Positions 42,336 through 46,556 of a stretch of DNA of 64,000 nucleotides are shown here, in pieces. The position numbers and the translations under genes were made by a program. Source of the stretch: Cyanobium sp. T1B-Tous (GTDB lineage: Bacteria > Cyanobacteriota > Cyanobacteriia > PCC-6307 > Cyanobiaceae); NCBI RefSeq assembly GCF_024345475.1, contig NZ_JAGQBE010000002.1:1-64000 (forward strand). Direction: 5' to 3'. The first letter of the stretch is position 1. The number at the start of each line of letters is the position of its first letter. Below the pieces are notes generated by a model. It searched no databases and had not been told where the DNA came from. It saw nothing but the letters and a program-made list of their open reading frames with translations.

Positions 42336-42506
42336 CATCGAAGCTGAAAGGTCCTGGTGGCCGTGGGCATCGCTCCGAGCCCAGTCCGCCATCTTCGGCC
42401 TTGCCTCCCAAGCCCCCAGCCCTGCTAGCGGGCTTTCCCACCGCGCCAACCGCCATGCCCCCAGGGGCTGACCACGGTGGCCCACTGCCCACCAGCCTCC
42501 CCACCG

Positions 42507-44840
42507 ATGAAGTTCACGGTCGCCGACCTGCTCGACCAGCTTCCCGCCGTTGAAGCTCTTCCCCTGCCGAAGCTGGAGAAGGCCCTTGGCCTCACCCAGA
42601 AGGCCGAGAAGCAGCAACTGCAGATCGGCCTCGAGGGCTTGACCAAGCTGGGCCTGCTGGAGGTGAACGAAGCCGGCGTCGCCAGGCGGCAGGATCCGGA
42701 GCTGATTCCGGCGCGCCTGCGCTGCTCCAGCAAGGGCTTTTGCTTTGCCCTGCGCGAAGACGGCGGCGAAGACATCTACATCCGGGACCACCAGCTCAAC
42801 CACGCCTGGAATGGCGACCGGGTGCTCGTGAAGGTGACCCGGGAAGGGGGGCGGCGGCGCTCACCGGAAGGCGGGGTGCAATGCATCCTCGAGCGGCACA
42901 CCACCTCGTTGCTGGCCCAGGTGGAACAGCAGGAGGAGCGACTCATCGCCACTCCCCTGGACGACCGTCTGCTGACGGCGGTGGAACTGCCCCCAGCCGA
43001 TGCCAGCCATCTCCAGGCTGAGCAGGCCTCCGTGGTGGAGGTGCTGGTCGACCGGTACCCCGTGGGCCAGTTCGCCCCCCAGGGCCACGTGGCCCGCAGC
43101 CTGCCGGTGAACGGCGGCGAAACGGCCGACCGCGACCTGCTGCTCACCAAGCACCGCCTCCACGCCCGTCCCCAGCCCCCCCGGGCCACCCTCAAGGCCC
43201 TCGCGGCCAAGGAACGCACCGACCTCACCGCCCAGCCGGTCCTGCTGCTGGAACCCTGGGCAGGCAAGGACGCTCCGGCCCTGCCGGGCCTCGGTCTGGA
43301 GGAGCGCGAGGGGGGCTGGACCCTGTGGGTGCACACCCCGGCCATCAGCGAGCGCTATGGCCCTGGCAGCGCCCTCGACACCTGGCTGCGCCAGCAGGCT
43401 GACGCCTTCTGCGTGGGGAACGAATGGCTTCCCCTGCTGAGCCCCGCCCTCACCAAAGCCGCAGCCTTCAAGGCGGGGGAGGCCCAGGCCGCCCTTTCGG
43501 TCGCCCTGGAACTCAGCCCTGAGGGCCAGCTGGAGCACTACCGCTTCTGCCGCAGCCAGATCAAGCCCGTGGCTGCCGCTGGCCTGGACGCCCTGACCGC
43601 CCTGGCAGAACGCAAACCCAAGAGCCGCACCGTGCCCCCGGCCCTGAAGGGCCTCAAGGATCAGCTGACCCTGTTGGACCAGCTGATCACCGTCACCGGG
43701 TTGCTGCGGGAGCAGCGCCAGGCCGCCGGTTCCCTGGACCTCAACCTGCCCCTGCCGGCCATCCCCAGCCTTGGCGACCTGGCCGTGCCCGGCCCCGATG
43801 CGGCCCTGGAAGGCTGGATGGTCAGCCTGGAGGGCCACCATCCCCTGGCGGTGCTGCGGGAAGCCGTTCTCGTGGCCGAGCGCGCCCTCGGCCAGCACCT
43901 GTCCGCCCTGGCGCTGCCGGCGATCTACGCCACCAATGCCACCGCTGACGCGGCCGATCTCAACGACGTGGCCCGCGCCGCCCTGGCCCTCGACATTCCC
44001 CTTGAACTCAGTGAGGAGGGCAACGCCAGTGCGGCGGAGCTGGCCACAGCCTTCGCCAGCACCGACCGCAGCCGGGCTCTCCAGCAGCAGCTCAAGGCCA
44101 TCCTCAAGCCGATTCTGCTCAGTGACGTCCCCGGCACCCATGCGCTGGCCGGCCTGATGGGGGAAGGGGCCGCCCTGGCCCCCTGGTGCTGCCCAACCCT
44201 CCATTACGCGGATCTCTGGAACCAGCAGATGCTCGTGGTGTTGCTCACCGAGGGGAAGGATCGTCCGAGCGTGCGCCACAAGACCAGCGTCGACCTGGCC
44301 TCCGATGGCTGCCATGGCGCCATCGACTGGCCCTTGCTGGCCCCCAGCCAACTCACCCCCTACCAGGAGGTGCTGGAGCATGGCCTGGTGCAGCGCCTGA
44401 ATGGACGCCGGCGATTCCTGGCCGAACTCCAGGGCGACCTGCTCGCCATGGTGCAGGCGCGCCAGGCCGAACCCCTGGTGGGCCAGGTGCTGCCCGGGGT
44501 GATCAGCGGGGTGCAGAGCTACGGCTTCTTCGTGGAGGTGCCGCCCTCCCAGGTGGAGGGCTTGGTGCACGTCAGCTCCCTCAAGGACGACTGGTACGAA
44601 TACCGCTCGCGCCAGAACCGGCTGGTGGGGCGCAAGAACCGCCGCACCTACATGCTGGGGGACCAGGTGGAGGTAGAGATCCAGAAGGTGGATGCCCTGC
44701 GCCATCAGATCGACCTGGCTGTGATTCTTCCCGAAGGGGAGGAGCCCTCCGAGGCGGACCACTCCCGCGGCGCCGAGCAGCGCGAGGCCGATGAGGAGGC
44801 CGATCCCTTCGCACCAATCGCCGTCCTGAGCGAGGTCTGA
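42507..44840 (+). CDS. RNB-domain (RNase II/R-like) protein with degenerate active site
   Basis: A 777-aa protein. ATG 42507 fits; an earlier GTG at 42477 adds ten unlikely residues. Order: winged-helix and cold-shock-like N-terminal part (RCSSKGFCFALREDGGEDIY, then IRDHQLNHAWNGDRVLVKV), RNB domain from about 240 (GGWTLWVHTPAISERYGPGS, later RHKTSVDLAS), and a C-terminal S1 domain (GVISGVQSYGFFVEV). RNase II/R needs four clustered Asp in DPxxxxDxDDA. Here the place reads EPWAGKDAPALPGLGLEE (about residue 249), keeping one Asp at most. It is likely an RNA-binding protein without exonuclease activity. It is followed by ubiX after 3 bases. Confidence 0.8.
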   Translation: MKFTVADLLDQLPAVEALPLPKLEKALGLTQKAEKQQLQIGLEGLTKLGLLEVNEAGVARRQDPELIPARLRCSSKGFCFALREDGGEDIYIRDHQLNHAWNGDRVLVKVTREGGRRRSPEGGVQCILERHTTSLLAQVEQQEERLIATPLDDRLLTAVELPPADASHLQAEQASVVEVLVDRYPVGQFAPQGHVARSLPVNGGETADRDLLLTKHRLHARPQPPRATLKALAAKERTDLTAQPVLLLEPWAGKDAPALPGLGLEEREGGWTLWVHTPAISERYGPGSALDTWLRQQADAFCVGNEWLPLLSPALTKAAAFKAGEAQAALSVALELSPEGQLEHYRFCRSQIKPVAAAGLDALTALAERKPKSRTVPPALKGLKDQLTLLDQLITVTGLLREQRQAAGSLDLNLPLPAIPSLGDLAVPGPDAALEGWMVSLEGHHPLAVLREAVLVAERALGQHLSALALPAIYATNATADAADLNDVARAALALDIPLELSEEGNASAAELATAFASTDRSRALQQQLKAILKPILLSDVPGTHALAGLMGEGAALAPWCCPTLHYADLWNQQMLVVLLTEGKDRPSVRHKTSVDLASDGCHGAIDWPLLAPSQLTPYQEVLEHGLVQRLNGRRRFLAELQGDLLAMVQARQAEPLVGQVLPGVISGVQSYGFFVEVPPSQVEGLVHVSSLKDDWYEYRSRQNRLVGRKNRRTYMLGDQVEVEIQKVDALRHQIDLAVILPEGEEPSEADHSRGAEQREADEEADPFAPIAVLSEV

Positions 44841-44843
44841 GCC

Positions 44844-45500
44844 ATGGTTGCCGCGGCCGGACCCGCTCCAGTGGTGCTGGCGGTGTCCGGCGCTTCCGCC
44901 CAGCCCCTGGCCCAACGGGCCCTGCAGCTGTTGCTGGAGGCGGACGAAGCGGTGGAGCTCGTGACCTCCCGCGGCGCCATCGGGGTGTGGCAGGCCGAAC
45001 TGGGTTTGCGGGTGCCGTCTGAGCCCGAAGCCCAGGAAGCGTTCTGGCGGGAGCGCACCGGCATCCAGTCGGGCCAGTTGCGCTGCCACCGCTGGAACGA
45101 CCAGGCCGCGGGCATCGCCAGCGGCAGCTTCCGCACCAAGGGCATGGTGATCCTGCCCGCCTCGATGGGCACGGTGGGACGGATCGCCTCCGGGGTCGCG
45201 TTGGATCTGGTGGAGCGCGCCGCCGACGTGCACCTCAAGGAGGGACGCCCCCTGGTGATCTGCCCCCGGGAAACCCCCTGGAACCTGATCCACCTGCGCA
45301 ACCTCACCGCCCTGGCGGAGGCCGGTGCCCGCATCGCCCCACCGGTTCCGGCCTGGTACCACCAACCCCAGACCATCGAGGACATGGTGGATTTCCTGGT
45401 GATCCGGGTCTTTGACGTGCTGGGCTTTGAGCTCGGCAACCTGCGCCGTTGGCAAGGGCCGCCCCACCAGCCAGGATCCCAGGACACCCGGTCTCTCTAG
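44844..45500 (+). CDS. ubiX: flavin prenyltransferase UbiX
   Basis: A 218-aa flavin-binding enzyme that makes prenylated FMN for UbiD-type decarboxylases. Motifs are [48 protein letters not shown] (with the usual phosphate and FMN contacts), [14 protein letters not shown] and [20 protein letters not shown]. The SGASG of most UbiX proteins reads SGASA here. In cyanobacteria it is needed for plastoquinone-type quinone synthesis. It lies directly after the RNB-like gene. Confidence 0.93.
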
Positions 45501-45526
45501 ATCCCCCCTACCCACCAGTCCGTCCG

Positions 45527-46066
45527 TTGGTCCTGCTGCAACGCCTGCTGCTGCTCCCCCTGCTGGCCCCGCTGTTGGTGGTGCTGCTGGTGGGTGCCCT
45601 GAACCCCAGGCCCAGCCTCGCCCTGCGGCTGTTGGTCTGGACCTCTCCTGCCCTGCCGATTGGCGTGTGGATCGCCCTCGCCGCCGGGGGTGGGGCCGGG
45701 CTGAGCGCCGCCGGTGCCGCCCTGGCCCTGGGAACGGCACCAGGGGGCCTGCGCCGCCAGGTGCGCCGATCGGCCCGCGATCCCCGCCAGACCTGGAGCG
45801 AGGACGGCCCGGAACCCTGGGAGGAGGCCGCCGATCGCACGCCTTCACCGCGGCAGAGCACCCCAGCGGCCCAGGGCCCGTCCGCCGGACCGCCCAGGGC
45901 ACCGGGCGATCCGGCCCCCACCGTGGCCGTGCCATTCCGGGTGATCCGCAAGGGCCGGCCGCCGGCGAGCCCCCCCGCCCAGGCCCCTGCCGTCCCCGAA
46001 CCGGTGGTGACCCAGGCGGCCGCCGTGGGCGATGGCTGGGACGGCCCGGCCAACGACGACTGGTGA
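45527..46066 (+). CDS. hypothetical membrane protein, 179 aa
   Basis: Not recognised. TTG 45527 is the only standard start after the ubiX stop in this frame; an earlier in-frame ATG at 45449 lies inside ubiX. Two strong membrane helices fill residues 1-70 (LLLLPLLAPLLVVLLVGALN and GVWIALAAGGGAGLSAAGAA). The remainder is a charged, proline-rich cytoplasmic or lumenal tail with DPRQTWSEDGPEPWEEAADR and a short globular patch VPFRVIRKGRPP, ending DDW. The two-helix hairpin layout resembles LapA-type proteins. Start and existence are less certain than for neighbours. Confidence 0.5.
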   Translation: MVLLQRLLLLPLLAPLLVVLLVGALNPRPSLALRLLVWTSPALPIGVWIALAAGGGAGLSAAGAALALGTAPGGLRRQVRRSARDPRQTWSEDGPEPWEEAADRTPSPRQSTPAAQGPSAGPPRAPGDPAPTVAVPFRVIRKGRPPASPPAQAPAVPEPVVTQAAAVGDGWDGPANDDW

Positions 46067-46133
46067 AACCGGCCCCCTGCTGCAGGTCAGACCTGCGTAA
46101 AGTCGTTTCAGATGCCGCAAGGGGCCTGCACAG

Positions 46134-46556
46134 GTGAGCGAAGCCGCCCAACCCGCCGCGAACGCGGAAGCCAAACCCGCCAAGGCCAAGCCGCCGAGCC
46201 CCGAAGATCAACCCTTCGACAGCTACGTGCCCCAGCTGTTGATGCCAGCCCTGGCTAAGGAAATACAGGGCTACGGCGGTCCCGCTCCCGAGCTCTCCTT
46301 TGAGCAGGGGCCGATGCCGGTCGTCGGGGCGAACTGCTGGATGGTCAAGGGCACCCTGCCCGGGGAGCGGCGCTTCTGGCTCTGCTTCACCGGAGCCGAC
46401 ATCAATGCCACCAAAACCGTGGCCGTGGCTGAAGCGGGCAGCGAACCCAGCCTGCTCGAATCGTTTTTGATCGACGAGAAAAAGATGAGCCTGGCGCTGC
46501 TGGTGTCCCGGCTGGTGCAGCGGCTGAACGGGCAGAAGTGGCTCGGCCCGAACTGA
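46134..46556 (+). CDS. DUF2996 protein
   Basis: A 140-aa cytoplasmic protein starting at GTG 46134. The N-terminus is Ala/Lys/Pro-rich and disordered. The core (LMPALAKEIQGYGG, then LSFEQGPMPVVGANCWMVKG and RRFWLCFTGADINATKTVAV) fits DUF2996, conserved in cyanobacteria and in plant plastids (related to LOW PSII ACCUMULATION-type names), with RLNGQKWLGPN at the end. It precedes acsF by 48 bases. Role not established; a link to photosystem or chlorophyll assembly is inferred from context. Confidence 0.78.
   Translation: MSEAAQPAANAEAKPAKAKPPSPEDQPFDSYVPQLLMPALAKEIQGYGGPAPELSFEQGPMPVVGANCWMVKGTLPGERRFWLCFTGADINATKTVAVAEAGSEPSLLESFLIDEKKMSLALLVSRLVQRLNGQKWLGPN

Follow-up and report, generated by a model that had tools for sequence, protein, structure and literature searches.

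Results

The zam locus

The window, by which we mean the whole 64,000-nucleotide stretch of the Cyanobium sp. T1B-Tous contig that was analysed, carries on its plus strand the gene zam (42507..44840, with its stop codon at 44840), which encodes a pseudo-RNase R of 777 aa. The ATG at 42507 is the start common to relatives; a GTG at 42477 is an alternative in-frame start upstream of it. Pfam matches and an AlphaFold2 model together give the architecture CSD1, CSD2, RNB, S1. The cold-shock/OB domain CSD1 lies at 42702..42899 (+; residues 66-131, with an OB_RNB Pfam match over 70-125), and Pfam places CSD2 at residues 88-131. The RNB domain occupies 43215..44249 (+; residues 237-581; Pfam 6e-36, 125 bits) and is predicted to keep its fold, with the active site lost. 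The S1 RNA-binding domain follows at 44469..44726 (+; residues 655-740; Pfam match 657-739). A preliminary description of this DNA had reported that the flanking RNB blocks and the S1 domain were kept and that ubiX lay beside the gene, and we find the same: a ubiX-like flavoprotein gene of the flavin prenyltransferase family (44844..45500, +) is directly downstream. That description did not mention what matters most here, the two cold-shock domains and a cysteine pair. The codons for Cys73 (42723..42725, +) and Cys79 (42741..42743, +), numbered as in the Zam protein of Synechococcus PCC 7002 (PMC9145284), form the first and second members of a redox pair within RCSSKGFCF.

A scan for promoters and terminators around zam gave nothing exceeding chance. 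An antisense frame of 1116 codons (42861-46211, -) runs across zam, ubiX and the gene that follows; it has no Pfam match and is probably a side effect of GC-rich third codon positions.

Identity as Zam

On sequence grounds we identify the product as Zam, a cyanobacteria-specific pseudo-RNase R. Thomas et al. described Zam in 2022 as a clade of the RNase II/R family that occurs throughout the cyanobacteria, has a degenerate active site and, in many genomes, carries the annotation of an exonuclease (PMC9145284). In their work, C73 and C79 of CSD1 were redox-active and required for function in PCC 7002, cysteine mutants phenocopied the zam deletion, and deletion brought acetazolamide resistance and a pigment phenotype in both PCC 6803 and PCC 7002 (PMC9145284). 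Purified PCC 7002 Zam showed no nuclease activity; nor did it bind the Rnb substrates tested, but the protein aggregated (PMC9145284).

In our tree the Zam sequences fall into a single clade (SH-aLRT 99) and the Rnb sequences into another (100), with Zam joining E. coli RNase R. The best NCBIfam model for the window protein is likewise RNase R, at a score far below the TIGR02063 equivalog cut-off (180 vs 598 bits). C73 and C79 are invariant in the alignment and stand at the published numbers in the window protein, and the cysteine pair was found as the motif RCxxxxxCF in 244 of 245 Zam orthologues. The single Zam of the 245 that lacks the second CSD1 cysteine (L248; G522 contig 1, 2050200-2053000) reads RCSSKGFGF. 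We found no Zam outside the oxygenic cyanobacteria class in the phylum sample, where four RNB-bearing genomes carry Rnb-like proteins.

Loss of the RNB active site

The RNase II active site consists of four Asp plus Arg500, with Asp209 essential (PMC3293843). Aligned to RNase II, the former Asp cluster of the window protein falls at 43245..43310 (+; codons 247-268 of the frame from the ATG at 42507). These residues read LLEPWAGKDAPALPGLGLEERE, and D255 is the only Asp among them, just as the preliminary description had it. The alignment pairs RNase II D201, D207, D209 and D210 with E249, P257, L259 and P260. The loss extends past the Asp cluster noticed in that description, since the equivalents of Y253, the tyrosine clamp on the last base, and R500, the catalytic arginine, are also replaced, by C302 and L565; the block that was TSPIRRYxDL now reads CCPTLHYADL (44184..44213, +), with Leu565 as the Arg500 equivalent. 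All six catalytic or clamp residues have thus been exchanged, and from its sequence the protein would be expected to lack nuclease activity. That it is Zam with a destroyed active site is, on the same basis, close to certain.

We rejected two other readings of the loss. A shifted alignment that would restore the four Asp, which had been named as a check, did not recover them: pattern searches found [DE]xDD[AGS] in none of the 245 Zam orthologues, and DxDDA likewise in none. Neither is the loss specific to one strain; all 35 picocyanobacterial orthologues examined are missing the DD pair as well as the arginines of RRYxDL.

It had also been proposed to look for another, intact RNase R in the genome. 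A second RNB gene with an intact site is present (666 aa, reading TIDDADTCDIDDGL), but it is of the RNase II type rather than RNase R, grouping in the tree with cyanobacterial Rnb. The pattern D, D/E, D, D, Y, R is kept in 23/23 cyanobacterial Rnb paralogues aligned. The genome also encodes PNPase and RNase E; the RNase E/G matches begin right at the ends of two contigs of assembly G000 (C37, base 3; C99, base 4), so rne is probably broken by the assembly. The number of RNase II-family members in Synechocystis PCC 6803 is given as one (PMC3293843) or as two, sll1290 and sll1910 (review, PMC10989914). Some cyanobacteria have a third RNB protein that is neither Rnb nor Zam (L119, L120, L122, L118 and L091), with sites of the VDRDDGIW- or DLDDA type.

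Conservation, selection and fold

zam is present in all 150 genomes of the order, and its frame is open in nearly all of them, a few matches overrunning a stop at one end. Within the genus, CSD1 and S1 show pairwise dN/dS values of 0.00-0.03 and the RNB domain shows 0.07-0.19; the whole protein is under purifying selection, strongest on CSD1 and S1. Mean pairwise identity among picocyanobacteria follows the same division, at about 89% for CSD1, about 86% for S1 and 59-62% for some parts of RNB. Given these dN/dS values and this conservation, zam is a maintained protein and not a pseudogene.

The AlphaFold2 model (mean pLDDT 88, pTM 0.84) predicts that the RNase R fold is retained despite the lost site. 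Among the structure matches listed, which are RNB-family full-length and S1-domain matches only, the best are RNase R structures at Z about 34. E. coli RNase R (5xgu_A) matches at Z 33.3, with an rmsd of 3.1 over 603 residues, and yeast Ssd1 (7am1) at Z 29.

Graded erosion among Zam proteins

We surveyed erosion of the site in 245 Zam sequences, a set biased towards Nostocaceae. The DD pair is kept in 65 of the 245. The least eroded proteins, 39 in number, keep the D201, D209 and D210 equivalents, the D207 equivalent being the sole loss from the acidic cluster; its position is non-acidic in every one (A in 29, V in 9, T in 1). Arg500 is kept in 39/39 of these three-Asp proteins and Tyr253 in 31/39, and the Asp spacing equals that of E. 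coli in 11/39. Most Nostoc-type Zam read E..EN at the active site, and nothing of the site is left in picocyanobacteria, the window included. Scores against the RNase R model fall in step with erosion: the least-eroded lineage reaches 582 bits, Nostoc 464 and the window protein 180. A fully intact Zam, which might serve as a missing link, was sought in 390 genomes drawn from across the class and in the 245 sequences, and none was found. This graded loss of the Zam active site (three Asp, E..EN, nothing) is an addition by the present analysis, as is the reach of the zam-ubiX linkage described below.

When the active-site columns are left out of the tree, whose deepest forks are poorly resolved, the active-site states need 7 changes, compared with 34 when labels are shuffled. 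Tentatively, given those forks, and with somewhat less than even confidence, we suggest an ancestor that had lost only one metal ligand, the D207 equivalent, kept three Asp, Tyr and Arg, and already acted through a redox-switched cold-shock domain; it would have given rise both to near-complete, perhaps weakly active lineages and to the fully erased picocyanobacteria. If so, the regulatory role is older than the loss of catalysis, as has been proposed for fungal Dis3L2/Ssd1. The graded series offers natural material for timing the loss of catalysis and for asking whether regulation came first.

Gene neighbourhood and Anabaena Alr1240

In most of the lineages examined, ranging from picocyanobacteria to Nostocales, ubiX is directly 3' of zam; the two genes stay together within the examined stretches in many, not all, other lineages. 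Two GDT1-type transporter genes precede zam in picocyanobacteria. In Nostocaceae, zam opens a run of genes on one strand, with ubiX and a small hydrophobic gene behind it, while the gene after rnb is on the opposite strand. A probable run of zam, ubiX and a gene for a small hydrophobic protein was noted both in Nostocaceae (L126, 3788-7621) and in the window (42507-46066); the third proteins of the Nostocaceae and picocyanobacterial runs match weakly (E 6e-4).

Anabaena Alr1240 has been reported to degrade unstructured (single-stranded) RNA and to stimulate RNase E (review, PMC10989914), and Alr1240 has been identified as Zam (PMC9145284). alr1240, alr1241 and alr1242 form one transcription unit (PMC10287535). 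This unit matches the zam-ubiX-small gene run, unlike the surroundings of rnb, and so agrees indirectly with the identification; Alr1240 is probably Zam. A conflict in the literature is thereby exposed: Alr1240 is reported to be an active RNase II, yet Nostoc-type Zam lacks the essential Asp and purified PCC 7002 Zam showed no activity. If Alr1240 is Zam, either Nostoc-type Zam has residual activity despite E..EN or the assay needs repeating, and some Zam proteins may not be dead. The reported activity does not rescue the window protein, because that protein has lost far more.

Discussion

The preliminary description had suggested an exonuclease that is dead but has been retained for RNA binding or regulation. 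Sequence, orthologues, selection and the Zam literature (PMC9145284) all argue for this, and since the window protein is Zam, the idea is a published one; the finding is real but already known, having appeared in 2022 (PMC9145284).

Most likely, Zam senses redox state, binds RNA and regulates RNA turnover, possibly by way of RNase E. The C73-C79 pair would sit in the RNA-facing L12 loop of CSD1, where a disulfide would form or break as photosynthesis alters the redox state. This change would switch either the binding of RNA or the stimulation of RNase E, thereby adjusting the turnover of photosynthesis transcripts, with the RNB domain now serving as a scaffold. The redox switch is taken from the published PCC 7002 work and the RNase E step from the published Anabaena work; by analogy with these systems, RNA or RNase E may be the partner of Zam and redox state may control the contact. 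We lean towards this full mechanism, a redox-switched pseudo-RNase R acting on RNA turnover, with moderate confidence. It would link photosynthetic redox state with RNA metabolism in cyanobacteria, the most abundant marine ones included.

A possible objection is that zam is a decaying pseudogene, or that its active-site region reflects a sequencing or frameshift artefact. The RNB domain does score only 125 bits against Pfam, but relatives with 77-96% identity keep an open frame, selection holds on both RNB (dN/dS 0.07-0.19) and S1 (0.00-0.03), and identical residues are lost in 35/35 picocyanobacteria; the dN/dS values and the presence of the gene in 150/150 genomes of the order refute the objection, and we give it practically no weight. 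A residual exonuclease activity, weak or unconventional and relying on other acidic residues, at least where erosion has gone less far than in the lineage of the window, would fit the RNA degradation reported for Alr1240 (PMC10989914) and the near-complete sites of the 39 three-Asp proteins, with Arg500 in all, Tyr253 in 31 and E. coli spacing in 11. Even there, however, the D207 position is non-acidic throughout; in RNase II, Asp209 is the one residue that is essential (PMC3293843), and Nostoc-type proteins have Glu-Asn at that place; purified PCC 7002 Zam was reported inactive (PMC9145284); and none of the six residues is left in the window protein. We regard such activity as improbable.

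Zam might instead be purely RNA-binding, acting on its own mRNA targets without RNase E in the manner of yeast Ssd1, a non-enzymatic member of the RNase II family whose conserved outer surface binds mRNA (PMC8934651). A Zam working in this way would hold RNA on its outside, with the inner channel blocked. The pattern in Zam is alike, with conserved cold-shock domains and an eroded RNB domain, and the Z of 29 for 7am1 is in keeping with it. Against this stand the reported failure of Zam to bind the Rnb substrates tested, with the caveat of aggregation (PMC9145284), and the RNase E interaction reported for the probable Anabaena orthologue (PMC10989914). This alternative is rather unlikely in our judgement, although it deserves more weight than a surviving exonuclease, and the redox-sensing regulator remains our preferred reading.

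Comparison with known systems

The closest known system is Zam itself (Synechocystis sll1910; Synechococcus PCC 7002 A1543), which has the same CSD1-CSD2-RNB-S1 order, a degenerate RNB site, C73/C79 in RCSSKGFCF, a cyanobacteria-wide distribution and, as in the window genome, a second, intact Rnb alongside (PMC9145284). The window protein is among the most eroded of its kind, whereas Arg500 and Tyr253 survive in many other Zam proteins and three Asp in some. RNase R (E. coli Rnr, 5xgu; 30S-bound RNase R, 8cdu) resembles it in predicted fold and in domain order and provides the best NCBIfam and PDB matches among those listed; unlike RNase R, the window protein lacks the catalytic Asp, Arg and Tyr and reaches 180 bits where the family cut-off is 598. 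Cyanobacterial Rnb/RNase II (Synechocystis sll1290, and L001, the second RNB gene of the window genome) shares the RNB superfamily but forms a separate clade with the site intact in 23/23. The pseudonucleases yeast Ssd1 and fungal Dis3L2 have likewise lost the acidic cluster while conserving the cold-shock domains (PMC8934651, PMC8097288); they are eukaryotic and Dis3L2-derived, carry CSD1 and S1 insertions and arose independently of Zam, and Ssd1 is not known to have a cysteine redox pair. By analogy, Ssd1 may nonetheless be the best model for the way in which Zam works.
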